A DNA stretch of 64,000 nt from Flavobacterium galactosidilyticum (lineage in GTDB: Bacteria > Bacteroidota > Bacteroidia > Flavobacteriales > Flavobacteriaceae). Where the stretch lies: NCBI RefSeq assembly GCF_020911945.1, contig NZ_CP087135.1:2592001-2656000 (forward strand), in the 5' to 3' direction. This document shows, one piece after another, positions 7,683 to 36,689 of this stretch (the stretch's first letter is position 1; every line of letters starts with the position of its first letter). The notes below the pieces were generated by a model that saw only the letters and a program-made list of their open reading frames with translations, had not been told where the DNA came from and made no database searches. Made by a program: the position numbers and the translations under genes.

Positions 7683-7686
7683 AATT

Positions 7687-11179: not shown

Positions 11180-12100
11180 ATGAAAATTCAACACTTACAA
11201 GGTCTTATTTCTGCTCCATTTACACCATTTGATAGCAACGGGAAATTAGATGTTAGTTTAATTCCTGGGTACTATTCTTTTTTAAAACAAAACGGAATAA
11301 CGGGAGCTTTTATTAATGGTTCAACAGGTGAAGGAGTTTCTACAACCATGGCGGAAAAGAAAGCAGTAGCACAAGCTTGGGCAGACTGTAGTAATCATGA
11401 TGCCGACTTTAAAGTAATGGCTTTTTTAGCAGGTACTTGTCTTGATGATTGTATCGAGTTAGCTAAACATGCTTACGAAATTGGTTTATACGCTGTTTCA
11501 CTGACAGGTCCTTTTTATTTTAAACCTGCAAATATAGATATGCTTGCTGAAGTATGTATCAAAGTTGGAAAAGAAGTGCCAAATATGCCTGTTTATTACT
11601 ATCATATTCCAGTTTTGACCGGAGTTAACTTTCCGATGTTTGATCTAGTGAGAGCACTAGATGGTAAGCTTCCCAATTTTGCTGGAGTAAAATATACCCA
11701 TGAAGATTTTATGGATTTCCAAAGTTGCATGACGTATGCTGATGGTAAGTACGATATGCTTTGGGGACGTGATGAAAATATGCTTTCAGCTTTAGTATTA
11801 GGAGCAAAAGGTGCTGTAGGAAGCACTTTTAATTATGCAGCTCCATTGTATTACGATTTGATTGATGCATTCAATGCCAATGATTTGGTTAAAGCTCGTG
11901 TTTTACAACAAAAATCCATTGACATGATTCGTTTGTTAGGGAAATATGGCGGAATCTCAGTTGGTAAAGCATACATGAAAATGGTAGGATTCAATTTAGG
12001 TGAATTCAGATTGCCTGTAAAAAACATGAGTGATGAACAATTTGAATTATTCAAAAAAGATGTAGCAAGTTTAAATTTTGATGAATATAAGTCAAAATAA
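11180..12100 (+). CDS. nanA: N-acetylneuraminate lyase
   Basis: The 306-residue protein is a class I aldolase of the DHDPS/NAL superfamily. It cleaves N-acetylneuraminate to N-acetylmannosamine and pyruvate in the cytoplasm. The carboxylate-binding motif GSTGEG is at residues 47-52, the catalytic tyrosine region YYYHIP at 139-144, and the Schiff-base lysine is Lys171 in GVKYTHED. Length matches known lyases (about 300). The surrounding mutarotase, transporter, epimerase and sialidase genes argue strongly for NAL over dihydrodipicolinate synthase. It heads a run of plus-strand genes extending to nagA, though gaps of 70-260 bases mean several promoters are possible. Confidence 0.93.
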   Translation: MKIQHLQGLISAPFTPFDSNGKLDVSLIPGYYSFLKQNGITGAFINGSTGEGVSTTMAEKKAVAQAWADCSNHDADFKVMAFLAGTCLDDCIELAKHAYEIGLYAVSLTGPFYFKPANIDMLAEVCIKVGKEVPNMPVYYYHIPVLTGVNFPMFDLVRALDGKLPNFAGVKYTHEDFMDFQSCMTYADGKYDMLWGRDENMLSALVLGAKGAVGSTFNYAAPLYYDLIDAFNANDLVKARVLQQKSIDMIRLLGKYGGISVGKAYMKMVGFNLGEFRLPVKNMSDEQFELFKKDVASLNFDEYKSK

Positions 12101-12344
12101 TTGTAATTATTGATTCTGAAAAATTCTAACACAAATAGTGTAGGTTTAACAATATTAAATAAGCTGTTTTTTTCGCTAGATTAAAAGCATCTTCGTTGCC
12201 ATTAATTAATCAGGTTACAAAGGCTTTATTTGCTTTAATTTATAAAAAAGCTAAAAAAATATTCGTTGTGTTTTTGTGTCTTTGTAGCATTGAATCACGA
12301 ACCGACTTACATTTTGTTAGAGACTTTATTTTAAAATAATAACG

Positions 12345-13520
12345 ATGAACAAATCTATTTTTCCTTTACTTTTTATATCCCTTATTATGGCAACAACTGA
12401 TGCATTTTCTCAAAAGAAAGAAGTAAATCATGTAGATTGGACGACAGCTGCCCAATTGCAAAATTCGGATGGTAGTCTTTCAATTGGTTACGCAGGACCA
12501 ATTAACGGTATTAGTAATGAGGTGCTAATTGTTAGCGGTGGTGCCAACTTCCCTGATAAAATGCCTTGGGAAGGAGGAAAGAAAAGTTATTCTAAAACCA
12601 TTCATGTACTTGAAAAATGCAAAGATCAATATACTTGGAATAATGAAGTAAAAAGTGTATTGCCTGAAGCTATTGCTTATTGTGGATCGACATCTACTGA
12701 TTTAGGTGTGGTTTATGTAGGTGGCGAAAATGAAAATGGACTTTCTAATAAATCATATCTTTTAAAATGGAATGCCGCTAAAAAAGAAGTGGAAGCTAAA
12801 GTATTACCCGATTTTCCTTTCGCTATTGCAAATATTTCTCTGACTCATATTGGTAAAACAGTTTATGCTGTTGGCGGAGATGAGGCAGCTAAATCCTCTG
12901 ATTTTTTTGCTAGTCTAGACTTGAATGAAGCCAACCCGCAATGGAAAGCTTTACCCAATTTACCTTTGGCTTTAGCCAATGCGGTTGTAATTGCTCAAAA
13001 AGGAAAAAACGGAGTTAATATTTATGTAGTAGGCGGAAGAACTAAAACAGCTTCTGGAATAAGTGATTTACATAATACTACTTTTGTTTTCGATGTAAAA
13101 AAACAAATCTGGGAAGCTGCGGCAACGATTTCTGACGGAAAAAACAGCACTAACTTTTCAGCGGGAGCTGGAGTTGCCGTAGGAACTCATTCTGTGTTAA
13201 TTGTTGGTGGAGACAATGGTGTTATTTTTCACCAAATAGAAACCTATCTATCTCAAATTGCTCAAGCAGAATCAGAAGAATTAAAAGCGGAACTCATCGC
13301 TAAGAAAAATAAATTAGTAACGAATCATCCCGGATTTTTCAACGGAATTTTGTTATACAATACGCTAACAAATGAATGGTCAAAAGTAGGAGAGTTACCT
13401 TTTTTACCTCATGTTACCACTCCAGCCGTTTTATGGGATAAAAAAATAATCCTGTCTAACGGGGAAATTAAACCTGGAATTCGTACACCTAATGTTATGT
13501 TAGGAACCATCAAGAAATAA
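12345..13520 (+). CDS. nanM: NanM-like N-acetylneuraminate mutarotase (Kelch propeller)
   Basis: The 391-residue protein has a signal peptide (residues 1-22, cleavage near DAFSQ) and is predicted to be periplasmic. Kelch-type blades recur: VLIVSGGANFP, VVYVGGENENG, KTVYAVGGDEA, VNIYVVGGRTK, SVLIVGGDNG. The family converts alpha-N-acetylneuraminate, as released by sialidases, to the beta anomer. Bacteroidota members belong to a cyclically permuted subgroup, and the first recognisable blade here begins after a WTTAAQL strand near the N-terminus. The next gene is the transporter, 74 bases away, so coexpression is likely. Confidence 0.85.
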   Translation: MNKSIFPLLFISLIMATTDAFSQKKEVNHVDWTTAAQLQNSDGSLSIGYAGPINGISNEVLIVSGGANFPDKMPWEGGKKSYSKTIHVLEKCKDQYTWNNEVKSVLPEAIAYCGSTSTDLGVVYVGGENENGLSNKSYLLKWNAAKKEVEAKVLPDFPFAIANISLTHIGKTVYAVGGDEAAKSSDFFASLDLNEANPQWKALPNLPLALANAVVIAQKGKNGVNIYVVGGRTKTASGISDLHNTTFVFDVKKQIWEAAATISDGKNSTNFSAGAGVAVGTHSVLIVGGDNGVIFHQIETYLSQIAQAESEELKAELIAKKNKLVTNHPGFFNGILLYNTLTNEWSKVGELPFLPHVTTPAVLWDKKIILSNGEIKPGIRTPNVMLGTIKK

Positions 13521-13594
13521 TAACAATTAGTTAGTTACACTCACTTTCTATTTACTGAAAAGCTATTTTAAAAACTCACAAAGAAAACCCATTT

Positions 13595-14839
13595 ATGAAA
13601 GAATCAAAATATTATCCTTGGGTTGTCGTAGCCCTACTGTGGATTGTCGCCTTGCTCAATTACATGGACAGACAAATGTTAGCCACCATGCGCCCATCAA
13701 TGGAAACTGATATTCCAGAATTATTATCTGGCGAGAATTTTGGTCGATTAATGGCAATATTTCTTTGGATTTATGCATTAATGAGTCCAGTTTCGGGAAT
13801 TATTGCTGATAAAATGAACAGAAAATGGTTGATTGTTGGTAGCCTTTTTGTTTGGTCAGCTGTTACTTATGCGATGGGATATGCTAATAGTTACAATCAG
13901 TTGTATTGGTTAAGAGCAATTATGGGTGTGAGCGAGGCTTTATATATTCCTGCAGGCTTGTCACTTATCGCTGATTATCACCAAAAAAAGACAAGATCAT
14001 TAGCTATTGGTATTCACATGACGGGATTGTATATGGGTTCTGCAATAGGAGGTTTTGGAGCTACAATTGCTGCCTCTTTTTCATGGCATACTACTTTTCA
14101 TTATTTTGGATTGATTGGAATTATTTATTCTGTTGTTTTAGTGTTTTTATTAAAGGAATTTAAACATCCCGAATCAGAAACTAAAGCATCTGTTGCTACA
14201 CCTACAAAGGAAAGAGAATCAGTGCTAAAAGGTTTAAGCGTATTATTTACAAACATGTCTTTTTGGATAATCTTATTTTATTTTGCTATTCCAAGTTTAC
14301 CAGGTTGGGCTACTAAAAACTGGCTTCCTACTTTATTTTCTCAAAACTTAAATATTCCTATGGAACAAGCTGGACCGCTTGCGACTATTACCATTTCTGT
14401 TTCGGCATTTATCGGAGTTATTTTTGGTGGAATACTATCAGATAGATGGGTACAAAAAAACATTAAAGGAAGAGTCTATACGAGTGCCATTGGTTTAGGA
14501 TTAACTATTCCTGCTTTACTGTTACTTGGTTTTGGTCATTCTTTATTTAATGTAGTAGGAGCAGCGCTATGTTTTGGTATTGGATACGGAATGTTTGATG
14601 CTAATAATATGCCAATTCTTTGTCAGTTTGTGTCTTCAAAATATAGAGCTACGGCTTACGGAATTCTTAATATGGTCGGAGTAGGTTGTGGCGCTTTAGT
14701 GACTTCATTATTAGGTAAATATTCTGATAGCGGAACCTTAGGGAGTGGATTTGCATTAATGGCTGGTGTCGTTTTAGTTGCATTAATTGTTCAAATCAGT
14801 TTTCTACGTCCAACGGCAAATGATTATGTAGATGCCTAA
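13595..14839 (+). CDS. nanT: MFS transporter, probable sialic acid importer (NanT-like)
   Basis: The 414-residue protein has the twelve-span layout of major facilitator proteins. The first span is followed by LNYMDRQMLATMRP, typical of the anion/sugar-acid symporter (ACS-like) subgroup. The loop between spans 2 and 3 reads GIIADKMNRKWLIVG, the MFS motif with conserved D and R/K. A hydrophilic central loop lies near residues 190-215. Position between nanM and the acetylesterase supports uptake of N-acetylneuraminate across the inner membrane, as for NanT in Bacteroides and Tannerella. Substrate is assigned by context. Confidence 0.85.
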   Translation: MKESKYYPWVVVALLWIVALLNYMDRQMLATMRPSMETDIPELLSGENFGRLMAIFLWIYALMSPVSGIIADKMNRKWLIVGSLFVWSAVTYAMGYANSYNQLYWLRAIMGVSEALYIPAGLSLIADYHQKKTRSLAIGIHMTGLYMGSAIGGFGATIAASFSWHTTFHYFGLIGIIYSVVLVFLLKEFKHPESETKASVATPTKERESVLKGLSVLFTNMSFWIILFYFAIPSLPGWATKNWLPTLFSQNLNIPMEQAGPLATITISVSAFIGVIFGGILSDRWVQKNIKGRVYTSAIGLGLTIPALLLLGFGHSLFNVVGAALCFGIGYGMFDANNMPILCQFVSSKYRATAYGILNMVGVGCGALVTSLLGKYSDSGTLGSGFALMAGVVLVALIVQISFLRPTANDYVDA

Positions 14840-14989: not shown

Positions 14990-17080
14990 ATGAAACGATT
15001 TGCTATAAATCAGTTTTTACTTTCTTGTATTGTTATCCTCTGTTTCGGACAGTTGGTAATGGCACAAAAAGCAGCTATAAAAATAGCTTGTATTGGTGAT
15101 TCCGTAACCGCAGGTTATCTTTTAGGAAATTCAGGATTAGAATCGTATCCATCCCAACTTCAATTGTTGATGGGAGAAAGTCATCAGGTTGGAAATTTTG
15201 GAAATAGTGGTGCTACACTGTTGAAAAACGGACATAAGCCTTATTATAAAACAAAGGAATTTAAAGATGCTATTGCATTTAATCCAGATATTGCCATCAT
15301 TCATTTAGGTTTAAATGATACCGATCCTAGAAACTGGCCTAACTACAAAGAAGAATTTGATGCTGATTATAGTTGGTTATTGGATGCGTTAAAAAAGCAA
15401 AATCCAGCTGTTAAAATATATATCTGTAGAATGACGCCTATTTTTAATGAACATCCTCGATTCAAATCTGGAACGAGAGATTGGTATTGGCAAATTCAAT
15501 CGCATATAGAAACTATTGCAAAAGCGAATCAAGTGGGATTAATTGACCTACATGAAATTTTATATCCGCGTCCTGATCTTTTTCCAGATGCATTACATCC
15601 CACAAAGGAAGGTGCATCAATTTTGGCGAAGATCGTTTATAAAAATATCACTCAAGATTTTGGCGGACTAAAATTAGCAACGGTTTTTACAGATAATATG
15701 GTTTTGCAACGCAATCAGCCTATTACAATTTACGGAACTGCTAATGGTGGTGAGGTAGTTGAAGTATCTTTCAAAGGACAAAAGAAGTCAGCTACAACCA
15801 ATCAATACGGAAAATGGGAAGTTATTTTTCCTCCTCAAATTCATGGTGGACCTTATGAAATGATGATTAAAAGCAATTTAAAAAACATTGTTTTAAAGAA
15901 CATATTAATTGGTGATGTTTGGTTTTGTTCTGGGCAATCGAATATGGTTTTTCAACTTCAACAATCTGAAAACGGAAATGAGGAAATAAAAAAAACTTTG
16001 CCTAATGCTGCTATTCGTCTTTTCAATTTTAAGGATTTGCGAGAAACGGACAATACAGTTTGGGATTCGATCACATTAGCCAAAACGAATCAATTAGAAT
16101 TCTTCTCAGGAAAATGGACTGAATGTAATGCGGAAAATGCAAAAGACTTTTCGGCGATTGCTTACTATTTTGCAAAAAAAATTACTACCGAGGAAAATGT
16201 GCCTATAGGATTGATACAAGTTGCTGTTGGTGGATCACCGATAGAATCTTGGATCGACAGATATACGTTAGAACATGATGATAAAGTGGTTGATTTATTA
16301 ACTAATTGGCGAAAATCTGATTTTATCATGCCCTGGGTTCGAACTCGTGCTGATATGAATTTAAAAAAATCAACCAATCCAAAACAACGTCATCCTTATG
16401 ATCCAGCTTATAATTTTGAAGCAGGCATAACAAACTTTACTAAATTCCCAATAAAAGGTGTGCTTTGGTATCAAGGGGAAAGCAATGCACACAATATAGA
16501 ATTATATGAACACCTTCTGCCTACTATGGTTAAAAGTTGGCGCAAAGCTTGGAACAGTAATTTTCCGTTTTATTATGTGCAATTGTCTAGCTTAAATCGA
16601 CCTACATGGCCTGATTTTAGAGATGCTCAAAATAGAATGCAAAAAATAATTTCTAACAGCGCTATGGCAGTAAGTATGGATTTTGGAGATTCAACTGATG
16701 TTCATCCTATTCGAAAGAAAGAAATTGGGGATCGATTAGCACTTTTAGCTTTAAAAAACACCTACGGAAAATCAGTTATCGCTAATGGACCTTACCCTTT
16801 GAATGCAGTAAAAAATAAGGATCAAATAGTGATTTCTTTTACTTTTTCAAAAAAAATAATGGCAGCAGAAAAAAAAGAGATTATTGGTTTTGAATTAGTG
16901 ACTGTTAAAGGAAAACACATTAAAACTTTGGCCACAGCCAAAAACAATCAAATTTTTATCACTATTCCAAAAGGAGAAAATATAAAGTCAGTTTATTACG
17001 CTTGGGAACCTTTTACGAGGGCAAATTTAGTAAATGAAGCCGGTTTACCATGTTCTACTTTTAAGATAGAAATAAAATAG
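14990..17080 (+). CDS. nanS: Two-domain sialate O-acetylesterase (SGNH plus SASA)
   Basis: The 696-residue protein has a signal peptide (residues 1-25, ending LVMAQ). The first domain (about 30-225) is an SGNH hydrolase with GDSVTAG at 36-42 (nucleophile Ser38), HLGLNDTD, and DALHPTKEG supplying the Asp/His pair. The second (about 226-690) is a sialate O-acetylesterase domain with GDVWFCSGQSNM (Ser317 the presumed nucleophile), VAVGGSPIESW and GVLWYQGESNAH. Such enzymes remove O-acetyl groups from sialic acids so that sialidases and lyase can act. The export signal implies periplasmic or surface action. The same two-domain arrangement is known for NanS of oral and gut Bacteroidota. Confidence 0.9.
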   Translation: MKRFAINQFLLSCIVILCFGQLVMAQKAAIKIACIGDSVTAGYLLGNSGLESYPSQLQLLMGESHQVGNFGNSGATLLKNGHKPYYKTKEFKDAIAFNPDIAIIHLGLNDTDPRNWPNYKEEFDADYSWLLDALKKQNPAVKIYICRMTPIFNEHPRFKSGTRDWYWQIQSHIETIAKANQVGLIDLHEILYPRPDLFPDALHPTKEGASILAKIVYKNITQDFGGLKLATVFTDNMVLQRNQPITIYGTANGGEVVEVSFKGQKKSATTNQYGKWEVIFPPQIHGGPYEMMIKSNLKNIVLKNILIGDVWFCSGQSNMVFQLQQSENGNEEIKKTLPNAAIRLFNFKDLRETDNTVWDSITLAKTNQLEFFSGKWTECNAENAKDFSAIAYYFAKKITTEENVPIGLIQVAVGGSPIESWIDRYTLEHDDKVVDLLTNWRKSDFIMPWVRTRADMNLKKSTNPKQRHPYDPAYNFEAGITNFTKFPIKGVLWYQGESNAHNIELYEHLLPTMVKSWRKAWNSNFPFYYVQLSSLNRPTWPDFRDAQNRMQKIISNSAMAVSMDFGDSTDVHPIRKKEIGDRLALLALKNTYGKSVIANGPYPLNAVKNKDQIVISFTFSKKIMAAEKKEIIGFELVTVKGKHIKTLATAKNNQIFITIPKGENIKSVYYAWEPFTRANLVNEAGLPCSTFKIEIK

Positions 17081-17174: not shown

Positions 17175-18362
17175 ATGAATTATTCGACTACAGATCTACA
17201 GGATTTAAAAGATTTTTACCAAAATCAATTATTAAATGACACGGTTCCATTTTGGTTTCCACGCTCGATAGATACCGAGTTTGGCGGTTATTTATTAATG
17301 CGAGATCAAGACGGAAGTCTAATTGATGATGATAAAGCGGTTTGGATACAAGGTCGTGCCGCTTGGTTATTGGCCACACTTTACAATACGGTCGAACCAA
17401 AACAAGAGTGGCTGGAAGGTTCCAAAACAGGTATCGATTTTCTGAACAATCATTGTTTTGATACGGATGGACAAATGTTTTTTCACGTAACTCGTGATGG
17501 GCAACCCATTCGCAAACGCCGCTATTATTTTTCCGAAACTTTTGCTGTTATCGCCATGTCGGCTTACGCCAAAGCAAGTGGAGATGAAGCCGCTGCCGAA
17601 AAAGCAAGGTTTTTGTTTGGTAAATGCATCGAATATTCAACAACTCCAGGTTTATTACAACCTAAATATTTGCCTACTCGACCAGCAAAAGGAATTGGAG
17701 TGCCTATGATTATGATGAATACGGCGCAACAATTAAGAGAAAACATTGGCGATCCCCGTTGTAATGAATGGATAGACAAATGGATTGCAGAGATTGAGCG
17801 TGATTTTGTTAAAGATGATATAAAATGCGTGATGGAACAAGTAGCACCAGATGGTTCTATTATTGACCATATCGACGGTCGTACTTTGAACCCAGGTCAT
17901 GCGATAGAAGGAGCTTGGTTTATATTGCATGAAGCAAAATACAGAAACAATGATCCACATTTGATTGCATTAGGATGCAAAATGTTGGATTATATGTGGG
18001 AACGTGGCTGGGACAAAGAACATGGTGGGATTTTATATTTCCGTGATGTCTATGACAGACCCGTTCAAGAATATTGGCAAGACATGAAGTTTTGGTGGCC
18101 ACAAAATGAGGTGATTATTGCAACTTTATTAGCCTACACCATGACTGGAGATGAGAAATATGCCAAATGGCACAAAATGATTCATGACTATGCTTATGAC
18201 AAATTTCATGACAAAGAAAATGGCGAATGGTTTGGCTATTTGCACCGCGATGGTAGCATAGCACAAACTGCCAAAGGGAATATGTTCAAAGGGCCATTTC
18301 ATTTACCGCGCCAGGAATGGTATTGTTTACAAATACTCAACGAACACTTGAAAAACGAATAG
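17175..18362 (+). CDS. AGE-family N-acylglucosamine 2-epimerase
   Basis: The 395-residue cytoplasmic protein matches the (alpha/alpha)6-barrel AGE/RenBP family in length and motifs: DTEFGGYLLMRDQDG near the N-terminus, VWIQGRAAWLLATLYN, NPGHAIEGAWF (first catalytic His region), WWPQNEVIIATL, and GPFHLPRQEWYC (second catalytic His). It should interconvert ManNAc, made by NanA, and GlcNAc without phosphorylation, as NanE does in Bacteroides fragilis. This differs from the phosphate-dependent NanE of enteric bacteria. A GlcNAc kinase must then act, and none is in the window. The gene is slightly richer in GC than its neighbours. The next gene starts 57 bases downstream. Confidence 0.9.
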   Translation: MNYSTTDLQDLKDFYQNQLLNDTVPFWFPRSIDTEFGGYLLMRDQDGSLIDDDKAVWIQGRAAWLLATLYNTVEPKQEWLEGSKTGIDFLNNHCFDTDGQMFFHVTRDGQPIRKRRYYFSETFAVIAMSAYAKASGDEAAAEKARFLFGKCIEYSTTPGLLQPKYLPTRPAKGIGVPMIMMNTAQQLRENIGDPRCNEWIDKWIAEIERDFVKDDIKCVMEQVAPDGSIIDHIDGRTLNPGHAIEGAWFILHEAKYRNNDPHLIALGCKMLDYMWERGWDKEHGGILYFRDVYDRPVQEYWQDMKFWWPQNEVIIATLLAYTMTGDEKYAKWHKMIHDYAYDKFHDKENGEWFGYLHRDGSIAQTAKGNMFKGPFHLPRQEWYCLQILNEHLKNE

Positions 18363-18418: not shown

Positions 18419-21400
18419 ATGGAAAAATTATTAACTAAGCTAGGCTTGCTTTTTTGTTTGGCTTTTTGTTTGAATCTTAATGCTCAAAGTGGCAATGCAT
18501 TAGTGCTAAATGGTACATCACAGTATATGACTGTGGCTACCCACTCTGACCTCAATATTACAGCTCTTCAGAGTAAAACCATTAGCTGCTGGATTCAAAC
18601 AACCTCCACTGCAAGCACGCGTGTGTTTGGTAAACGTTCCAGTGGCAATGGAGCCAATATGACTGCACCTGGTGTATCAGGTACTGGTTTTGAAATATTT
18701 TTAAAAGGAGGCACTTCCCCTGGAAGTTTTGTTGCAGGAAATGCCAAGTCCACAACCAGTGTTAGTATTGGCACACCATATGGTACGGTGGGAGTAAATA
18801 ATGGAGTATGGCACCATCTTGCTCTGGTAATAGACAATACCACTAAAATAGCATACGTATATATAGACGGCACATTTAGTTCCCAGACTGCCACTGCTGC
18901 AACCACCGCACAAGATTTTTCAACACTTGTAAATATGGTTATTGGTGCGGCGGCAGATGCAAGCAATAAATTGCCGGGTAAAATTGATGATTTCCGTATT
19001 TATAACGGAGCGTTGGATGCAACACAAATTGGTGCCGATAAAAATACCACAACGGTAAATGGATCAACCCCAAACCTTTTGGCCGCTTGGGATTTTGAAG
19101 GTATAACCCAAACAAATGTTCCCGATGTTTCAGGAAGAAATCATCCTGGGATACTTACAGGTTATACCATGCAGTATGCTTCAACGGTCTTGTCACAAAC
19201 GAATACAACGCAACTTGTACAAGGAAGTAATGACCAACAGATTATTGGTGTCAATATCAAAACGACCAATCCAAATACTTTGCCTGCAATTACACTTTCG
19301 CAGTTAAATTTTACTATGAATGGCACCACAGTCCTTTCGGATGTAAATAATATAAAGATATATTCAACAGGGAGTTCCAATGTTTTCAGCACGGCAACAC
19401 AATTTGGCGCAGCAGTTAGTCCGGCCGCAGGAACGCTTACTGCGACTGGAAGTATTCCGTTGACAACAGGGGATAATTATTTTTGGATTGCTTATGATGT
19501 GGCTGCGGGTGCGACAGTAAATAATGTATTGGATGCCACCTGCGAAGGTTTTGTGGTAGGTAATTCTACCTATACTCTAGCGTCACCTAACAATACGGTA
19601 ACAGGTTCAAGAACAATAGTTGCACCGGGAGCCGTTAATGTTTCCTTTACCACTATCCCGAAGGATATGCAGTTTTTTGCCAGAAATCTTAGTAACCAAG
19701 CAACAATAAGTGTTGTGGGTAGTGTAGATTCACCTAATATCGCATCAATAAAAGTTGATTTTTACCGTAATAATATATTGCGAAACACGATTTCTCAAAA
19801 CCTAACGTATAGTGGAGGTTCGGCACCATTTAATTTGTCTGATGTCATCACGGCAGAATTGGCCGAATATAAAATTGTGGTAAGCACGGTTGATAATAGT
19901 AGTGCGACAGAAGTTATTACCACAAAGGATCAATTAGTAGCCGGCGATGCTTATGTTGTTATGGGACAATCTAATTCCCATCCTACCAGAGCAGGTTATA
20001 CCTTTACCAATGAATACTTAAGAAGCTTTGGTATTCAAACAGGCAATACCAACTATGATACTTACAATCCTGCAGATGTTAACTGGGGGCTTGCACAGGC
20101 AAACTATACTGGGGCGTCAGGAACGGCAGATGCTGCTAATCCTACTTTTTTTGCTGGACCTTATATGGTAGGTGTTTGGGGACTCCAAATGATGGAAGAC
20201 TTAAAAAACCAGTTTCAAATACCGATATGCATCATCAACGGAGGGGCAGGTTCAAGTACAATTGAACAAAACTTGCCAGGTGCGGATCATTTTGATTTGA
20301 CGACAGTGTATGGCCGAATGATGTACCGTGTACAACAAGCTGGATTACAAAATAACATTAAAGCCATGTTCTGGCATCAGGGGGAGAAAAATGCTGACGG
20401 AACTTTTGCAAATTATCCAGCAAACTTCGATTTACTATACAATGCTTGGAAAACAGATTTGCCAGGCATGCAAAAAGTATATGTTTTTCAAACCAACTTA
20501 AACGGTTGTTATGGCGGTGCCAGTGTAAACCAATCGGCAATGAGAGAATGGCAACGGATTTTGCCACAAACAAAAACCGATGTTTCTGTGTTTCCTATGG
20601 CGGGTATTCCAGGAATGCAATCAGGTGATGGAAATGAAATTGCTTACTGCCATTACGGACTTAGTGGTTATACCACCATGGGTAGTCGTGTTGGGAAAGT
20701 GGTAGCTAAAGAAATTTACAGTTTCAATGCTACCGATAATGTTTTGCCTCCAAACATTACTGCGGCGGCATTTAATGCAGGTCGTACCCAAATAACGTTG
20801 ACTTTCAACAACAGTAATCTTCTTGCGCAAGCAGCGGTGGGTATTCATAATTTAAAAGATTATTTTTTCCTTGACGGTGTTTCGGGTGCTGTAAGCACGT
20901 TGACCGTGATTGGTAATACGGTTGTTTTAGATTTATCGGCAGCATCATCGGCACAAACAATTTCGTACTTATCTAATAGTTTGTATAATGATAATTCGAG
21001 CGTTTTTGCTGGGCCATATTTAACCAATACTAATAATATAGGAGCATTAACTTTTAATAATTTTCCAATAACAGGAGCATTACAACATTTACCAACTCCT
21101 TCAGGCAATGTATTGAAGTTGATCAATGGTGGTGGTTCTAATCAATATATGTCTGTGGTAGATCATGCTGATATTGATATTGCTTCCAATCAGTCTAGGA
21201 CAATTACGGCATTAGTAAAAACTGCTACACCAGCAGCTGTCCGCATACTTTCAAAACGTAGTGGTGCAGGTTATGAATTTATTACCAGCGCTAGTGGTAT
21301 TCCAGGTTTAAACGCTTCGGATGCTACTGGTCCACGTGGAGCAGGGTTCACTGGATCACCGAACATTGCAAATAATCAATGGCATCATGTAGCTATGGTG

Positions 21401-23548
21401 ATTGATCAAAGCAATACAGCAGCCAAAACAGTAAAACTCTATGTTGATGGGGTCTTGATTTCAACAGGTTCTTCCTTCAATTCAGCTGGCGATTTCAGTA
21501 ATGCCGTGAACTTAATTGTGGGTGGTGTTTCTGGAACAGCAGCGGGTCAATTTAATGGTAGTTTGGATAATGTTCGCATTTGGAATAAAGCGATGACATT
21601 TTCAGAAATTAGTGCCGATCAGGATGCTGTGGTCAGTGCGCCAACAGCAAATCTTCTTGCTGCTTGGGATTTTGAAGGTGTGGTAGGTACCAATGTTCCA
21701 GATGTATCTGGCAATTCTCATCCAGGAACATTGGTGGGAAGTCCGATTGTTGCCCCTGTACAAGTAAATATGGTGGTCAACTCGACTACCTTAGTTCAAA
21801 CACAACTGCCAACAGGATTGGGAGATGTAGATCAACGCATCATCGCTGTAAGGGTAACCACTGAAGGTTTTCAAAACGTATTGACCGCTTCTGCGTTAAA
21901 CTTTACAATGAATGGCACTACTTCAATTTCCGATGTTAGCAATATCAAAGTGTATTATACGGGTAGCAGTGCTATTTTTAACACAAATACAGCATTTGGC
22001 TCAGCAATTACTCCTGCAGCTGGTGCTTTAACAGCAAATGGTTCTCAGGTTTTAACAGAAGGAGACAATTATTTCTGGATTACCTATGATGTAGCCGCTG
22101 GAGCTACCGAAGGGAATTTCCTTGACGCCAGTTGCGAATCTATTGTTATTAATTCTGTGACTTACAATCCAGCCTCGAATACTGTTGCAGGAAATAGAGT
22201 AATATTATTGGCAAACACACTATTGTTCACACCTGGGGATGCGGGTTCGTTAAATTATCGTATTCCAGCAATCATAACTGCTGCCGATGGATCTTTGGTA
22301 ACCGTAACTGACAAAAGATGGAATGGTGCTGGGGATTTAGCAGCTAAGATTGACCCCGTAGTTCGTCGCAGTACTGATAATGGTAAAACATGGTCAGCTC
22401 CTGTAGTCATTGCTAATTTTGGTGCAGCTACTGGAGCAGGAGACGCAGCGATTGTAATGGATAAAACAAATGGTAATTTAATTTGTATTTTAGCTGCAAA
22501 CAAAGGTTTTTTTGCTTCTACCAACGCCAATCCTATTCAAATTTTAATTGTTCGTAGTACTGACAATGGTATTACTTGGGGCACTCCCGTAGATATAACT
22601 ACCCAAATATATGGTCCTAATCCAAATTGGAAAGGTGTCTTTATAGCTGCTGGAAGAGCGCATCAATTAAGAGATGGAAAAATTGTAGCGGCATTAACCG
22701 TTAGAGAAGATGTTTCGGGTTCAGAAAAAATCAATAACTACATGATGAGCAGTGTAGATAGTGGAGTGACTTGGACTGCTTCAACTGGAAGAGCTGAACT
22801 AGATGGTGACGAGGCTAAAATTGTAGAGTTGAATAATGGTAATCTTATGATGAGTATTCGTAATTCAGGTTCTCGTAGATTTAATATTTCAACTGATAAA
22901 GGAGTAACTTGGGGTACCGCTTACAGTCAAGCTGCAATTACAGATCCAAATTGCAATGGGGATTTTATTCGCTACACTTCAACTATAGATGGATATGATA
23001 AAAATCGCTTGTTACATTCTGTTCCATTTGCAGCAAATCGTAGTAATGTTAGTGTATTAATGAGTACTGATGAAGGAACTTCGTGGCCAACCAAAAAAAC
23101 AATTTTTTCTGGAGCATCAGCCTATTCTAGTTTAACGGTTTTACCTGACGGAACTTTGGGTATGTACTACGAAAATGGCGAGAGTTCGACTTACCAAATG
23201 TATTTTGTACGTTTCAGTTTAAATTGGTTAACAAATGGAGCAGATACTTTTGTGCCTAGTCCTACTTTATCAACAAACAACAGTATAAATAATCAAGATC
23301 AAAAAGGTTTAACAGTCCAAATCAGTCCTAATCCTACAGATGATTTATTTACTATGAATATACTAAATGCCGAAGATCGTGTTACTATTAAAATAGTTAG
23401 TTTACTAGGAAATGTTATTCAAAAAATAACGCTTAATAAAGGTGAATCGACCAAAGTTTTATCTTTAGGAAATCAATCAAATGGGGTTTATGTGATTCAA
23501 GTAAATGATACAAAGACAACTAAAAATTACAAGATAATTAAAAAATAG
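18419..23548 (+). CDS. Secreted multidomain sialate O-acetylesterase/GH33 sialidase with T9SS sorting domain
   Basis: I take the ATG at 18419, which gives a good signal peptide (MEKLLTKLGLLFCLAF, cleavage after LNLNAQ), rather than the in-frame 18317 inside the epimerase gene. The 1709-residue order is: LamG-like lectin domain (about 25-245); BNR_assoc_N-like domain (about 258-400); SASA-type SGNH esterase (about 500-780) with MGQSN at 515-519 and WHQGE at 652-656; a second LamG (about 895-1105); a second BNR_assoc_N-like domain (about 1120-1262); GH33 sialidase (about 1270-1625) with YRIP at 1280-1283 and five Asp boxes such as STDNGKTW and STDKGVTW; and a C-terminal type IX sorting domain starting ISPNPTDD. 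The lectin modules are an internal duplication. It should act outside the cell, removing O-acetyl groups and then sialic acid from glycans. Confidence 0.88.
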   Translation: MEKLLTKLGLLFCLAFCLNLNAQSGNALVLNGTSQYMTVATHSDLNITALQSKTISCWIQTTSTASTRVFGKRSSGNGANMTAPGVSGTGFEIFLKGGTSPGSFVAGNAKSTTSVSIGTPYGTVGVNNGVWHHLALVIDNTTKIAYVYIDGTFSSQTATAATTAQDFSTLVNMVIGAAADASNKLPGKIDDFRIYNGALDATQIGADKNTTTVNGSTPNLLAAWDFEGITQTNVPDVSGRNHPGILTGYTMQYASTVLSQTNTTQLVQGSNDQQIIGVNIKTTNPNTLPAITLSQLNFTMNGTTVLSDVNNIKIYSTGSSNVFSTATQFGAAVSPAAGTLTATGSIPLTTGDNYFWIAYDVAAGATVNNVLDATCEGFVVGNSTYTLASPNNTVTGSRTIVAPGAVNVSFTTIPKDMQFFARNLSNQATISVVGSVDSPNIASIKVDFYRNNILRNTISQNLTYSGGSAPFNLSDVITAELAEYKIVVSTVDNSSATEVITTKDQLVAGDAYVVMGQSNSHPTRAGYTFTNEYLRSFGIQTGNTNYDTYNPADVNWGLAQANYTGASGTADAANPTFFAGPYMVGVWGLQMMEDLKNQFQIPICIINGGAGSSTIEQNLPGADHFDLTTVYGRMMYRVQQAGLQNNIKAMFWHQGEKNADGTFANYPANFDLLYNAWKTDLPGMQKVYVFQTNLNGCYGGASVNQSAMREWQRILPQTKTDVSVFPMAGIPGMQSGDGNEIAYCHYGLSGYTTMGSRVGKVVAKEIYSFNATDNVLPPNITAAAFNAGRTQITLTFNNSNLLAQAAVGIHNLKDYFFLDGVSGAVSTLTVIGNTVVLDLSAASSAQTISYLSNSLYNDNSSVFAGPYLTNTNNIGALTFNNFPITGALQHLPTPSGNVLKLINGGGSNQYMSVVDHADIDIASNQSRTITALVKTATPAAVRILSKRSGAGYEFITSASGIPGLNASDATGPRGAGFTGSPNIANNQWHHVAMVIDQSNTAAKTVKLYVDGVLISTGSSFNSAGDFSNAVNLIVGGVSGTAAGQFNGSLDNVRIWNKAMTFSEISADQDAVVSAPTANLLAAWDFEGVVGTNVPDVSGNSHPGTLVGSPIVAPVQVNMVVNSTTLVQTQLPTGLGDVDQRIIAVRVTTEGFQNVLTASALNFTMNGTTSISDVSNIKVYYTGSSAIFNTNTAFGSAITPAAGALTANGSQVLTEGDNYFWITYDVAAGATEGNFLDASCESIVINSVTYNPASNTVAGNRVILLANTLLFTPGDAGSLNYRIPAIITAADGSLVTVTDKRWNGAGDLAAKIDPVVRRSTDNGKTWSAPVVIANFGAATGAGDAAIVMDKTNGNLICILAANKGFFASTNANPIQILIVRSTDNGITWGTPVDITTQIYGPNPNWKGVFIAAGRAHQLRDGKIVAALTVREDVSGSEKINNYMMSSVDSGVTWTASTGRAELDGDEAKIVELNNGNLMMSIRNSGSRRFNISTDKGVTWGTAYSQAAITDPNCNGDFIRYTSTIDGYDKNRLLHSVPFAANRSNVSVLMSTDEGTSWPTKKTIFSGASAYSSLTVLPDGTLGMYYENGESSTYQMYFVRFSLNWLTNGADTFVPSPTLSTNNSINNQDQKGLTVQISPNPTDDLFTMNILNAEDRVTIKIVSLLGNVIQKITLNKGESTKVLSLGNQSNGVYVIQVNDTKTTKNYKIIKK

Positions 23549-23735: not shown

Positions 23736-24878
23736 ATGAGAAAAATTTTCACATCGCTACTATTGATCACAGTAATAGGGCTGTCGGCTCAAAATGAGAA
23801 GTACCAAATTGCAGATGGTGTTATTTCACATCAGGACTTATTCAACACATCTATGGTTCAAGGAGTAAACTGCTTCCGAATTCCTGCAATTGTTACAGCT
23901 CCAAACGGTGATCTTATTGCTGCTATTGATGAGCGTGTTCCTAATTGCGGTGATTTAAACCGAAGCGGTGATATTAACATTGTTGTCAGACGAAGTGCTG
24001 ACAATGGAAAGACTTGGTCTGCAATTGAAACGGTGGTTAATTTTCCAATGGGACTATCAGCTTCTGATCCTTCAATGATTGTAGATAGGGATACTAAAGA
24101 AATTATTCTTTTCTATAATTACATGGATTTTGAAAAAGAAAGAGACATTTATTATTTACACGTAGTTAAAAGTAAGGACAACGGAAAAACTTGGAGCAAA
24201 CCAGAAGACATTACAAAGCAAATTGCAAAACCAGAATGGCATAAAGACTTTAAATTCATCACTTCGGGTCGTGGAATTCAAACTAGAGACGGAAAACTTT
24301 TGCATACTTTAGTTAATCTAAGTAAAGGTTTATTCATTTTCGGAAGTGATGACCATGGTAAAACGTGGTATTTTATTGATACTCCTATAAAACCCGCTGA
24401 TGAATCTAAAATTATCGAATTAGCTGATGGAACTTGGATGGTTAACTCCAGAGTTAATGGCGGGAAAATGCGTTATGTACACACTTCAACAGATGAAGGG
24501 AAATCATGGACAAGTAAGCCAGAGCCTACACTGATAGATCCGAGTTGTAACGGTAGTATTATAAGATATACTGCAAAAGCAGATGGTTATAATAAAGACA
24601 GAATTATTTTCTCGAATGCAAAAATGGAAAAAGGGCGTATGAATTTGAACGTTCGTATCAGTTATGACGAAGGAAAAACTTGGTCAGAAGGTAAAACGAT
24701 TTATAGCGGTCCTTCAGCCTATTCCTCTCTTACTGTTTTGAAAAATGGCGACCTAGCCGTCTTTTTCGAAAAAGATGAGTATACTAAAAATGAATTTGTT
24801 AGCTTTTCTTTAAAATGGTTAACTGACGGAAAGGATAAGTATAAAAAAGCTTGCAAGATCAGAAAGAAAAAAAATTAA
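23736..24878 (+). CDS. nanH: GH33 sialidase (exo-alpha-sialidase)
   Basis: The 380-residue protein has a short signal peptide (residues 1-19, ending LSAQ) and one six-bladed sialidase domain. FRIP at 47-50 supplies the first of three carboxylate-binding arginines. Asp boxes are SADNGKTW, SKDNGKTW, SDDHGKTW, STDEGKSW and SYDEGKTW. ADESKIIEL contains the conserved glutamate, and PSAYSSLTVL carries the nucleophilic tyrosine. It removes terminal sialic acids from glycans. It has no carbohydrate-binding module and no type IX sorting domain, so it is probably periplasmic and complements the large secreted sialidase upstream. Confidence 0.93.
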   Translation: MRKIFTSLLLITVIGLSAQNEKYQIADGVISHQDLFNTSMVQGVNCFRIPAIVTAPNGDLIAAIDERVPNCGDLNRSGDINIVVRRSADNGKTWSAIETVVNFPMGLSASDPSMIVDRDTKEIILFYNYMDFEKERDIYYLHVVKSKDNGKTWSKPEDITKQIAKPEWHKDFKFITSGRGIQTRDGKLLHTLVNLSKGLFIFGSDDHGKTWYFIDTPIKPADESKIIELADGTWMVNSRVNGGKMRYVHTSTDEGKSWTSKPEPTLIDPSCNGSIIRYTAKADGYNKDRIIFSNAKMEKGRMNLNVRISYDEGKTWSEGKTIYSGPSAYSSLTVLKNGDLAVFFEKDEYTKNEFVSFSLKWLTDGKDKYKKACKIRKKKN

Positions 24879-25137: not shown

Positions 25138-27741
25138 ATGAATTATCGCAAAAACTGCAATTGGATGTACTCTGTCATTATCACAGCGCTGTTTTTTATT
25201 GCAGGAACTACCAATGCTCAAATAAAAAAAAGCAATTTTCCTGAAAGTCTATTTTCGACTTATTATCATCAAAGATTAAGTCATTTTGAAACTTTACCTA
25301 AAACTAAAAATGATATTGTTTTTTTAGGAAACAGCATATCAGATGGCGCAGAATGGAGTGAGCTATTTGCGGACAACCACATAAAAAATCGCGGAATTAG
25401 CGGTGATTTTACTATAGGAGTTCTCAATCGCCTAGATGAGATAAGTATTCGAAAACCAAAGAAAGTTTTTCTGTTAATCGGAGTTAATGACTTGACACGT
25501 AATACATCGACCGATAGTATTTTTAAAAACATTGTTCAAATTGCGAAGTACTTAAAACAAGAGAGCCCTGCAACAAAACTATACATCCAAAGTGTTCTGC
25601 CCGTAAATGACGTCTATAAAAAGTTTGATGGTCATACCAGTAAAGGGGAACAAATAAAATCCTTAAATGCTAGTCTTAAGCAAAATGCCAAAGATTACAA
25701 TTACACTTTTATTGACCTATACACAGCGTTCTCTGATGAGAATGGAAAAATGGCAAAACAGCTAACGAATGATGGGTTACATCTTAACGGCGAAGGTTAT
25801 TTGTTATGGAAACGTATTGTTTATCCTTATGTATATAATTTAGAAACCAAAGCAGCTTTACTTCCAAAACCACAACAACTAACTTGGAATAATGGCTATT
25901 TCTCTTTAACGGATGCCAATACCATTTTTGTCGAAAATCCAGCTTTGAATAAAGAAGCATTAGTATTGCAAAAAGCAATGAAGCAAAAAGGTTTACACGC
26001 CGAAATAACAAACAAAAAGCCTAGCAAACAAAATTACATCTTGCTTCGATTAGGAAATGTAAATGCTGCTTTAAATCCCGCAGAAGCCTATAATCTAAAA
26101 ACTACTTCCGATAAAATTGTACTAACGGCGAATACACCAAATGGAGTCTATAACGGCATTCAAACTTTACTGCAATTAATGCGCGATAATGTTGCAGTGG
26201 AAGCCTCTGAAATCACAGATTGGCCAGCTTTTGCATGGCGTGGATTTATGGTAGATGTTGGAAGAAATTACCAATCGATGAAACTCCTAAAACAACAGAT
26301 TGATGTAATGGCAGCTTACAAAATGAATATTTTTCATTTTCATCCTACTGAAGATATCGCTTGGCGTTTGCAAAGCAAGTTATATCCACAGTTGACAAAT
26401 CCGGAATTTATGCTGCGTGATAAAGGCGAATATTATACGGAGAATGATTTAAAAGAGCTGATTGCATATTGCAAAGAACGTTACATCACCTTAGTTCCTG
26501 AAATTGATATGCCAGGTCATAGCGCCGCGTTCAAAAGAGCCATGGGAGTTGACATGCAAAGTGATGAAGGTTTAGTAATTGTAAAAAATATAATTAAGGA
26601 ATTTTGCAGTACTTACGATGTACCGTATTTGCATTTAGGAGCCGACGAAGTAAAAATTACGAATCAGAAATTCCTACCCGAAGTGATTGCACTTACTGAA
26701 AGTTTAGGAAAAAAAGTGATTGGCTGGGAGCCAGGTGGTAATTTTACTGATAGTGTAATTCGCCAACTGTGGATGGAAGGAGCAACAAAAGTTAGTAAAA
26801 ACAAAAATATTAAATATATTGATTCTCGACATTTGTACTTAAACCACATGGACCCTTTAGAAAGTGTAGTTACCATTTTTAACCGCCAAATATGCAATTT
26901 AACTGAAGGGAATGAAAATGCTTTGGGGGGAATTGTTTGTGTATGGAATGATAGAGCGCTAGAAAACGGTGATGATGTTATGAAAATGAATCCTGTTTAT
27001 CCAGGCATGTTGGCTTTTGCAGAACGCAGCTGGCGAGGTGGGGGTTCTCAAGGTTGGACAGCAACTATTGGCGAACCAGAAACCGAAAGAGCTACTGCTT
27101 TTGCGGAGTTTGAAAACCGACTATTAGACCAAAAAAAGCAATACTTCAAAGGTTTAGATTTTCCTTATATGAAACAAACTGATTTAGTTTGGAACATTTA
27201 TGGCCCTTTTGATAATAAAGGTGATGTAACCAAATCTTTTGCACCTGAAAATGTAAAATTTAATGCATCCAAAGAAAAACCAACGTACAAAGCTACTGGC
27301 GGAACTCTAGTAATGAGACATTGGTGGGCACCATTAATTTCCGGAATTATTGAGGAGCCAAAAGAAAATACAACATGGTATGCTCAAACAAAAATTTGGA
27401 GTGATGAAGATAAAGAACAAGATTTTTGGATAGGCTTTAATAACTTATCGCGTTCGATGAATACGGATTCGCCTGCTGCAGGAACGTGGAATAATTTGAA
27501 TAGTTCCATCTGGGTAAATAATCAGTTGATCCCTACGCCACTGTGGAAACGCCCTGCGCAAAAAGGTAATTTAGAAATACCGCTAATTGATGAAGGATAT
27601 GAATTTAGAGAACCAACAAAGATTACTTTGAAAAAGGGATGGAATACGGTTAATGTAAAGTTACCAATTACTTCATTTAATGGACTTAATTGGCAAAATC
27701 CAGTAAAATGGATGTTTACCTTTGTAGCAGTAACACAATAA
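25138..27741 (+). CDS. SGNH hydrolase-GH20 beta-N-acetylhexosaminidase fusion
   Basis: The 867-residue protein carries a signal peptide (residues 1-29, ending GTTNAQ). The first domain (about 45-235) is an SGNH hydrolase with LGNSISDG (Ser66), GVNDLTRN and DGLHLNGEGY. A GH20 N-terminal-like domain follows (about 240-355). The GH20 catalytic barrel (about 360-690) has WRGFMVDVGRNY, HFHPTEDIAWRL, PEIDMPGHS and HLGADE, with the Asp503-Glu504 pair expected to act in substrate-assisted catalysis. It should release terminal GlcNAc or GalNAc exposed by the sialidases, while the SGNH domain probably removes an ester group. It likely shares an operon with nagA, 53 bases downstream. Confidence 0.9.
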   Translation: MNYRKNCNWMYSVIITALFFIAGTTNAQIKKSNFPESLFSTYYHQRLSHFETLPKTKNDIVFLGNSISDGAEWSELFADNHIKNRGISGDFTIGVLNRLDEISIRKPKKVFLLIGVNDLTRNTSTDSIFKNIVQIAKYLKQESPATKLYIQSVLPVNDVYKKFDGHTSKGEQIKSLNASLKQNAKDYNYTFIDLYTAFSDENGKMAKQLTNDGLHLNGEGYLLWKRIVYPYVYNLETKAALLPKPQQLTWNNGYFSLTDANTIFVENPALNKEALVLQKAMKQKGLHAEITNKKPSKQNYILLRLGNVNAALNPAEAYNLKTTSDKIVLTANTPNGVYNGIQTLLQLMRDNVAVEASEITDWPAFAWRGFMVDVGRNYQSMKLLKQQIDVMAAYKMNIFHFHPTEDIAWRLQSKLYPQLTNPEFMLRDKGEYYTENDLKELIAYCKERYITLVPEIDMPGHSAAFKRAMGVDMQSDEGLVIVKNIIKEFCSTYDVPYLHLGADEVKITNQKFLPEVIALTESLGKKVIGWEPGGNFTDSVIRQLWMEGATKVSKNKNIKYIDSRHLYLNHMDPLESVVTIFNRQICNLTEGNENALGGIVCVWNDRALENGDDVMKMNPVYPGMLAFAERSWRGGGSQGWTATIGEPETERATAFAEFENRLLDQKKQYFKGLDFPYMKQTDLVWNIYGPFDNKGDVTKSFAPENVKFNASKEKPTYKATGGTLVMRHWWAPLISGIIEEPKENTTWYAQTKIWSDEDKEQDFWIGFNNLSRSMNTDSPAAGTWNNLNSSIWVNNQLIPTPLWKRPAQKGNLEIPLIDEGYEFREPTKITLKKGWNTVNVKLPITSFNGLNWQNPVKWMFTFVAVTQ

Positions 27742-27794
27742 TAACTGCTCTTGCTCCATTGATGAGAGTAATTCTTTATAAAAAACAGAAAGAA

Positions 27795-28913
27795 ATGAAA
27801 CAAGCAATTATTAACGCCATAGTACATACTGGAGAGGGGATAATCCACAACGGCGTTGTTATCATAGAAAACGATACTATTATCAGTGTTCAAAAAGAAA
27901 TTCCAAATGATATTCCACAAATTGATTTAAAAGGAAAACATATTGCTGCAGGTTTTATCGACATTCAAATAAATGGTGGTGAGCAATTCTATTTTAGTCA
28001 ATATCCAAATGAGGAAACCATTCAAGACATTCATGATTCAAGTTTGAAATATGGAACGACTCATACTCTGCCTTGTTTAATTTCTTCTTCGAATGAAACC
28101 ATACTTCAAGGAATTGAAGCGATCGGCAATTATAAGGAAAAACATAAAAACGGAGTATTAGGAATGCATTTAGAAGGACCTTTTTTGAACCCTTTAAAAC
28201 GTGGTGCGCATAGCTTGAATCAAGTTCGAAAGCCAACAAATTCTGAACTAGAAGAGATTATCCGTTATGGAAAAGACGTTATAAAAGTAATCACCATTGC
28301 ACCAGAATGTTTTACAGATGACCAATTAGAGATGCTTTTAGAAAGTGGCATAGTGATTTCAGCGGGACATTCGACCATGACTTATGAGCAAGCGCAATAC
28401 TACTTTTCGAAAGGAATAAAACTCGTTACGCACTTATTCAATGCTATGACGCAATTTGGTCATCGCGAACCGGGATTAGTAGGAGCAACTTTTGCAAACG
28501 AATCTGTGTATGCTCCAGTTATTTTGGACGGTGCTCACTGTGATTATGCGGCGGCAAGAATAGCTTATGAATTAAAGAAAGAAAAGTTTTTCTTGATTAG
28601 TGACGCTGCATTTTTAGGACGTAAAGTTGTAAATTTCAAATGGGAAAATTTTGACGCTCATCTTGAAAATGGATTCTATCGTAATGAAGAAGGCAATCTT
28701 GCAGGAGCGAGTATCTCGATGGATGAAGCGGTACAAAATGCTTACAAATACCTAAATGTATCTGCTGATGAAGCAATAAAAATGGCTACTTGTCGAGTTG
28801 CAGGAGCTATAAATATGGAAAATGAAATTGGCAAAATAAAACCAGGTTTCCCTGCTACTTTTGTTCAGTTTAATCCTGATTTATCTGGAATTAAAAGTTT
28901 AGTTTTAATTTAA
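27795..28913 (+). CDS. nagA: N-acetylglucosamine-6-phosphate deacetylase
   Basis: The ATG at 27795 is preferred; it follows AGAAAG and leaves 53 bases after the GH20 stop, while the upstream in-frame start at 27690 overlaps that gene. The 372-residue cytoplasmic amidohydrolase has HLEGPF (His125, metal-binding Glu127), SAGHS, THLFNAMTQFGHREPG and FLISDAA, the standard NagA metal and substrate residues. It converts GlcNAc-6-P to GlcN-6-P and acetate. It joins the sialic acid route (ManNAc to GlcNAc to GlcNAc-6-P) and the hexosaminidase product to central metabolism. The kinase before it and NagB after it are not in this window. Confidence 0.93.
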   Translation: MKQAIINAIVHTGEGIIHNGVVIIENDTIISVQKEIPNDIPQIDLKGKHIAAGFIDIQINGGEQFYFSQYPNEETIQDIHDSSLKYGTTHTLPCLISSSNETILQGIEAIGNYKEKHKNGVLGMHLEGPFLNPLKRGAHSLNQVRKPTNSELEEIIRYGKDVIKVITIAPECFTDDQLEMLLESGIVISAGHSTMTYEQAQYYFSKGIKLVTHLFNAMTQFGHREPGLVGATFANESVYAPVILDGAHCDYAAARIAYELKKEKFFLISDAAFLGRKVVNFKWENFDAHLENGFYRNEEGNLAGASISMDEAVQNAYKYLNVSADEAIKMATCRVAGAINMENEIGKIKPGFPATFVQFNPDLSGIKSLVLI

Positions 28914-33074: not shown

Positions 33075-33097
33075 TAATTTTATTAAATAAAAAAAAA

Positions 33098-33119
33098 GGA
33101 AGATGCGCCAACATCTTCC
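33098..33119. terminator. Hairpin between fecR and susC; best terminator on the minus strand
   Basis: GGAAGATG (33098-33105) and CATCTTCC (33112-33119) form a perfect 8-bp stem with a 6-base loop. The A-run lies on the left, so a U-run would follow only in a minus-strand transcript. In the plus direction it could attenuate or act as a processing site between the regulators and the transport genes. Confidence 0.45.
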
Positions 33120-33177
33120 CAGTCATTTTTAATAATGATTTAATCTAAAACTAACAAATTAAACCAAGTGTAAACTT

Positions 33178-36677: not shown

Positions 36678-36689
36678 TTTTAAATACAG

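Follow-up and report, generated by a model that had tools for sequence, protein, structure and literature searches.

In the genome of Flavobacterium galactosidilyticum an SGNH esterase module and a GH33 sialidase are joined in a single 1,709 aa protein that carries a T9SS sorting domain, and its gene sits inside a sialic acid (nan) locus. The window analysed here is the whole 64,000-nucleotide stretch that contains this gene (contig NZ_CP087135.1, positions 2,592,001 to 2,656,000 of the forward strand). The protein is probably a T9SS-secreted bifunctional enzyme that trims sialoglycans on behalf of the nan locus, with the esterase as an optional module. Sialidase action is limited by O-acetylation (PMC9063846). 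The usual answer to O-acetylation is a separate esterase, whereas here a Bacteroidota lineage has both in one predicted polypeptide. The esterase stands before the sialidase in some relatives and after it in others and many orthologues lack it, which provides a natural comparison set for the benefit of linkage and for the order of the chain. Its changed block V loop adds a new case to the question of how SASA/CE20 esterases use dyads, classical triads and water-mediated triads, and a soluble esterase-sialidase could serve as a tool to deacetylate and desialylate O-acetylated mucins in a single step.

Domain architecture of the fused protein

The gene is a single uninterrupted open reading frame (18419-23548, + strand) without an internal stop. 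An alternative in-frame ATG upstream at 18317 would yield a 1,743 aa product, but the start at 18419 is preferred because it is followed by a signal-peptide-like sequence and because the full-length relative P0002 begins there. The domains follow one another in the order signal peptide, LamG, BNR_assoc_N, SASA/SGNH esterase, LamG, BNR_assoc_N, GH33 and T9SS tail:

18419..18484, +, signal peptide, residues about 1-22, predicted by eye from the translation
18509..19030, +, LamG-like domain 1, residues 31-204 (PF13385, 71 bits scanned alone)
19196..19564, +, BNR_assoc_N domain 1, residues 260-382 (PF14873, 51.1 bits scanned alone)
19652..21073, +, esterase module, residues 412-885 (PF03629, AlphaFold2 model, structural matches)
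19964..19975, +, GQSN of block I with nucleophile Ser518 (all four positions identical in 48/48 rows)
20375..20386, +, HQGE of block III (alignment of 48 rows)
20609..20653, +, block V loop and catalytic His745, without Asp at -2/-3 (alignment)
21137..21613, +, LamG-like domain 2, residues 907-1065 (PF13385)
21791..22156, +, BNR_assoc_N domain 2, residues 1125-1246 (PF14873)
22211..23254, +, GH33 sialidase, residues 1265-1612 (PF13088/PF13859; PDB sialidase 8feb, E 1e-61)
23321..23539, +, T9SS type A sorting domain, residues 1635-1707 (PF18962 and TIGR04183)

An initial annotation, made from the letters alone, had proposed this combination of a fused esterase and sialidase with LamG, BNR_assoc_N and T9SS domains, and the intact reading frame and profile scans bear it out. 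Scored against curated cut-offs, the Pfam scan returned two stretches each of Laminin_G_3 (125 bits) and BNR_assoc_N (98 bits), together with BNR_2/BNR_3 (75/72 bits) and Por_Secre_tail (37 bits), and the NCBIfam scan TIGR04183 (39 bits), all of which pass. LamG-like domain 1 and BNR_assoc_N domain 1 exceed their cut-offs in separate scans as well. The central region is assigned to the esterase family SASA and not to a non-esterase family: PF03629 covers residues 510-713 with 49.5 bits against a cut-off of 24.8, and scored 54.5 bits in a second scan. A search for the same domain order in other genomes found it in P0002, which comes from a different contig and matches the window protein end to end at 79% identity. 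An assembly slip is therefore unlikely.

The sialidase domain contains the RIP motif at residue 1281 and, as annotated, five Asp boxes (1318, 1380, 1445, 1491 and 1549), together with the Arg triad, Tyr/Glu pair and Asp of GH33 enzymes. Aligned with 8feb, these are R1281, D1306, E1465, R1481, R1541 and Y1569, which we take to be the catalytic residues; all six are present in 50/50 GH33 rows. Secretion through the T9SS is supported by the C-terminal tail, on which both profiles agree, by the sorting tails of the genome (12 of the 16 listed exceed the cut-off) and by the presence of a full-length SprA, the component of the T9SS machinery that was searched for, and is predicted on these grounds.

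Structure of the esterase module

The defining blocks of SASA are GQSN (block I) and (H)QGE (block III), according to PMC9487903. In the fused protein these lie at residues 516 and 653, in agreement with the MGQSN and WHQGE motifs first noticed by eye, and the catalytic Ser and His are retained on alignment. Ser518, Gln517 and His745 are kept in all 48 rows, the fused ones included. Within block III, Q654 is found in 47/48 rows and G655 and E656 in 48/48, while H653 falls below 90% conservation; the complete HQGE is present in the window protein and in P0002-P0007.

The 474-residue module comprises an SGNH core, of which SASA covers residues 510-713, flanked by β-strand-rich parts at its N- and C-termini. 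Its AlphaFold2 model (pLDDT 89, pTM 0.91) matches XAC1771 (7kmm), 9h4u, 9ega and SIAE (8f9o-r) from residue 1 to 472-474, and model residues 98-356 align with the plain SGNH core 2apj. The model thus shows a predicted CE20/SIAE-type fold, with the SGNH core between two β-sandwich domains; this is a statement about fold and not a CAZy assignment. The ancillary β-sandwich that some CE20 enzymes carry as an insertion in the SGNH core is absent, and the module is short beside full-length enzymes with that domain (622-644 residues).

The best structural Z score for the model (29.5) is with the tailspike of cyanophage Pan3 at 14% identity, which suggests that the fold may be shared by some phage tailspikes. 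P0121, 950 residues long, consists of this esterase module twice in tandem.

The sialic acid locus and a proposed role

SASA occurs at two sites in the genome, the fusion and a NanS-like gene, and both lie in the nan locus, where the neighbours of the fused gene are on the same strand:

4248..9261, +, SusC/SusD pair with a NanU-like SusD (TIGR04056 761.5 bits, passes; NF033072 288.8 bits, below 425)
11180..14839, +, lyase (NanA-like), cyclically permuted mutarotase (NanM-like) and MFS transporter (best matches, all below curated cut-offs)
14990..17080, +, separate NanS-like two-module esterase, GDSL_2 then SASA (profile matches)
17175..18362, +, N-acylglucosamine 2-epimerase, AGE (PF07221 150 bits; NF052547 359.6, below 600)
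23736..24878, +, separate short GH33 sialidase, NanH-like (profile matches)
25138..27741, +, EstA/PvSAE-type sialate O-acetylesterase domain and GH20 hexosaminidase (6njc/7pzg, E 3e-67)
27690..28913, +, NagA, GlcNAc-6-P deacetylase (TIGR00221 286.7 bits, above 225.65; scanned from 27798)

A ROK-type regulator is also encoded upstream on the same strand. Most of the sugar genes are named by best match and context, as their NCBIfam matches lie below the equivalog cut-offs (SusC and NagA pass). In its two-module layout the NanS-like protein resembles NanS of Tannerella forsythia. The product of 25138-27741 is a second esterase-glycosidase fusion, with near-full-length relatives (at least 77%) in 5/199 genus genomes, the window's included. 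Directly downstream of the nan genes, 31866-38108 (+ strand) holds a FecR-type regulator and another SusC/SusD pair.

The initial annotation had imagined one extracellular protein that binds, de-O-acetylates and desialylates glycans. This is a fair prediction, since the fusion is real, the catalytic residues are in place and the gene belongs to a sialic acid locus, and judged from sequence both activities are likely to reside in the one polypeptide. It is proposed that the LamG and BNR_assoc_N domains would keep the protein on the glycan while the SGNH module strips the O-acetyl groups that shield sialic acid from sialidases. The GH33 domain would next release sialic acid outside the cell, and the freed sugar could then pass through SusC/NanU and the MFS transporter to the lyase, the epimerase and NagA. 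The locus, the GH33 partner and the SIAE-like fold all favour sialate as the substrate of the esterase. Against this, xylan and xyloglucan are substrates of SASA/CE20-type enzymes as well (PMC12313940), and in another genus a distant relative of the esterase (28% identity, genome G813) has GH20 as its fusion partner. In addition, the fused copy may be redundant, because the locus already holds the NanS-like esterase, the separate sialidase and the EstA-type esterase-GH20 protein.

These objections lend some weight to the idea that the esterase removes acetyl groups from other parts of the glycan, such as sub-terminal Gal, GalNAc or GlcNAc, or from bacterial capsule sugars, and that the fusion with GH33 reflects shared targets. 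CE20 members have several substrates, relatives of the module at 27-37% identity have GH20 or peptidase S9 as a partner or lack a further catalytic Pfam domain, and two other sialate-type esterases are already present in the locus. However, in all seven of the closest relatives the partner is GH33, the one further catalytic Pfam domain listed for them, and SIAE is among the best structural matches, so that this alternative is considered rather unlikely.

The block V loop

The fused esterases differ from their relatives in block V. In the alignment of 48 rows (8 fused, 40 unfused), the distance from an aligned anchor column to the catalytic His is 6 residues in 37 of the unfused rows, 7 in two and 8 in one, whereas it is 14 residues in all eight fused rows, which are thus 6 to 8 residues longer. 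The Asp at -3 (DxxH) of 33/40 unfused rows is replaced by Ala or Pro in 8/8 fused rows, and none of these has an Asp at either -2 or -3. In the window protein A742 stands at -3 and Y743 at -2 of His745, and it thus lacks the Asp that precedes the block V His by two or three residues in the classical Ser-His-Asp triad. Instead, the fused loop has an invariant Asp at -8, an invariant Asn at -6 and Glu or Asp at -5 (8/8).

A second set of 17 loci (3 fused, 14 unfused) agrees in part. The three fused loci follow the fused pattern; two are the P0003 and P0004 genes, and L022 from F. succinicans is new. An Asp at -3 or -2 is found in 13/14 unfused loci and is missing from L025. Loop length fails as a mark of the fused clade on four unfused loci (L080-L083), in which the stretch is 11-17 residues long, with an unsure alignment, and the Asp at -2 or -3 is retained. 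Loss of the Asp is therefore the better mark.

The missing Asp counts against the proposed bifunctional enzyme, and raises the alternative that the change in block V removed the catalytic acid and left a weak or dead esterase serving as a binding or spacer domain. Residues 735-741 of the protein (324-330 of the model) have a pLDDT under 50, and the model is consequently silent on what orients His745. Nevertheless EcNanS, a member of SASA, also has no block V Asp (PMC9487903), which means that its absence is no bar to membership of the family, and for mammalian SIAE a Ser-His dyad has been described (PMC9063846, PMC12313940). By analogy with these two, esterase activity is expected but not assured. 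Since Ser518, Gln517, His745 and HQGE are all maintained and the loop has acidic residues of its own, a weak or dead module appears improbable.

Comparison with known systems

The joining of an esterase to a sialidase is not a new idea, as there is a precedent in SiaBb1 of the gut bacterium Bifidobacterium bifidum, reportedly the work of Ashida (2018) and Yokoi (2022). The initial annotation held that the two enzymes are normally separate. This was overstated: SiaBb1 combines GH33 and an SGNH esterase in one protein with both activities demonstrated (PMC10298468, PMC7232152), and also has a ConA-like domain (PMC5626965). Its esterase activity is reported to aid sialic acid release (PMC10298468, PMC7232152, PMC12856340, PMC5626965). 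The likeness between SiaBb1 and the fused protein is one of architecture, since both unite an SGNH esterase with GH33 in a chain that is secreted or predicted to be so. SiaBb1 is actinobacterial, 1,795 aa long and has a C-terminal transmembrane region where the Flavobacterium protein has its T9SS tail, and the BNR_assoc_N pair of the latter is not mentioned for it in the passages covered.

The fused esterase and the CE20/SIAE enzymes (XAC1771, Fl8CE20_II 9h4u, PpCE20_II 9ega and SIAE) share the SGNH core, β-sandwiches, GQSN and QGE but only 12-19% identity, and differ in block V; SIAE resembles the fused esterase in having no inserted ancillary domain. In Tannerella (NanS and NanH) and Bacteroides (EstA and a sialidase) the esterase and the sialidase are separate proteins that cooperate. 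The literature searched (titles, beginnings of abstracts and some passages) contained no Bacteroidota esterase-GH33 fusion, nor the two arrangements, the module exchange or the loop described here; the pairing of the activities was already known.

Paired domains, two arrangements and probable recombination

The initial annotation had placed two lectin/BNR modules at residues 258-400 and 1120-1262. These stretches do hold the BNR_assoc_N domains, but the LamG domains lie outside them (31-204 and 907-1065). The claim that the modules are clearly an internal duplication does not hold for LamG: the two copies are 37.7% identical and their grouping in a single clade is rejected (p-AU 9.6e-97), whereas for the BNR_assoc_N copies (58.7% identical) a single clade is not rejected (p-AU 0.126). 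A recent duplication of the LamG-BNR unit is thus rejected as far as LamG is concerned. In the LamG tree the first domain groups weakly with the first LamG of P0037 and the second firmly with a LamG of P0039. The simplest accounts are that a BNR_assoc_N-esterase piece was inserted between the LamG domains of a LamG-LamG-BNR_assoc_N-GH33 protein, or that two tandem genes were fused; neither precursor was found. P0008 of F. gillisiae has the order LamG-LamG-BNR_assoc_N-GH33-T9SS, a GH33 86% identical to the window's and the same locus slot (G293), but unlike the fused protein it has adjacent LamG domains, a single BNR_assoc_N and no esterase module. A free-standing LamG-BNR_assoc_N-esterase precursor was not seen among 42 proteins (P0121-P0162), of which five have a LamG-type domain (P0124, P0135, P0137, P0154, P0156) and none PF14873; these searches scored 7,994 and 7,996 candidates sharing most words, and P0125 is itself a fragment of a fusion.

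The esterase takes two positions. In type I (the window protein and P0002) it lies between two LamG-BNR_assoc_N units, and in type II (six proteins, P0003-P0007 and P0125) it follows GH33. Type II fusions from F. aquidurense, [Flexibacter] sp. ATCC 35103 and F. succinicans share the esterase clade (62-66%), GH33 and locus slot of the window protein but carry the esterase between GH33 and the T9SS tail; they are named in their sources as sialidase, hypothetical protein, CshA-type fibril repeat or LamG protein. CshA/cadherin-like repeats (PF17963, PF19076) are annotated in some of these sialidases (P0005, P0006, P0034 and P0036), whether or not they carry the esterase.

In the esterase tree all eight fused modules group in a single clade (SH-aLRT 100) that is cleanly split into the two types. 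Their GH33 partners are mixed: seven of the fused rows have a full GH33, and their placement in a 50-row GH33 tree requires six changes, at least three of them forced by well supported branches, and monophyly is rejected for all seven (p-AU 0.0014), for the two of type I (2e-10) and for the five of type II (6e-10). A single fusion followed by plain vertical descent is thus rejected. In a comparison of six GH33 domains, that of the window protein comes closest to P0008 (86.5%) and that of P0002 to P0029 (90.9%). Each domain upstream of GH33, by contrast, is 79-86% identical between the window protein and P0002. Measured over 60-residue segments, identity between these two is 80-90% at 903-1262, 92% at 1263-1322 and 82% at 1293-1352, drops to 65-75% from 1323 to 1502, and is 73-82% beyond; P0002 and P0029 show the opposite trend (39-72% before 1264, 82-95% after). 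The rise towards P0008 would prove nothing by itself, because GH33 is generally the more conserved and because the whole GH33 of the window protein and P0002 is 78.0% identical, close to LamG1 (79.7%) and BNR_assoc_N 1 (78.8%). Taken with the trees, the local drop in identity points to recombination near the BNR_assoc_N/GH33 border among alleles of one locus. The esterase may have joined an existing sialidase of the locus slot, after which recombination between Flavobacterium alleles would have spread and rearranged it.

A more specific reading, made slightly less likely by the long loops of L080-L083 and on balance somewhat improbable, is that the clade is a sialidase-dedicated esterase subfamily with a rebuilt loop (DxxH lost; longer, with invariant Asp and Asn), which travels as a recombining cassette within a single conserved Flavobacterium locus into two sites of its host enzyme and performs its chemistry in cis from either side.

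Distribution in the genus and family

Among 398 Flavobacterium genomes the esterase module (E <= 1e-8) occurs in five. It is fused in four, the window's, G097, G230 and G267, and the fifth (G260) has a 33% relative with no GH33 domain in the scanned frame. GH33 matches at E <= 1e-30 were found in 24 of the 398, and 18 genomes have a GH33 at least 74% identical to the window's, the esterase being present in 4 and absent from 14 of them. Of the 17 other loci with a close GH33, 14 were compared (3 fused, 11 unfused; G301, G321 and G068 were left out). In each, fused or not, a NanS-like gene is present and the close-GH33 gene lies after AGE and before NagA; a short sialidase intervenes before NagA in G200 and GH20 in G354, where the close-GH33 gene has no LamG.

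The patchy presence of the fusion and the constant separate NanS-like gene would suit an ordinary multidomain secreted CAZyme whose fusion is a passing product of recombination with no benefit over separate enzymes, but the conserved residues persist in eight proteins whose GH33 domains diverge by as much as some 23% from that of the window protein (pairs compared), which makes this very improbable.

Among 5.8 billion proteins, a search for the esterase in long proteins gave seven clusters with GH33, the window's included, and a search with the cut-out esterase piece added P0125, an entry that starts inside GH33. Outside the genus, the 397 family-sample genomes yielded relatives of the fused esterase and no esterase-GH33 fusion, a result that covers relatives of this esterase; GH33 may be fused to esterases of other kinds. 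Besides the window's, 12 genomes of this sample have such relatives at E <= 1e-30, in 13 places. Nine of the 13 reading frames are shorter than 820 aa and too short for both domains, although contig ends could have cut some. The four longer frames, from three genomes, have LTD, TSP_3, MopE or GH20 beside SASA (one was read for 1,427 of 1,497 residues). The GH20 partner of the 28% relative in G813 is encoded with it in a 1,170-residue frame (L087:2438-5947).
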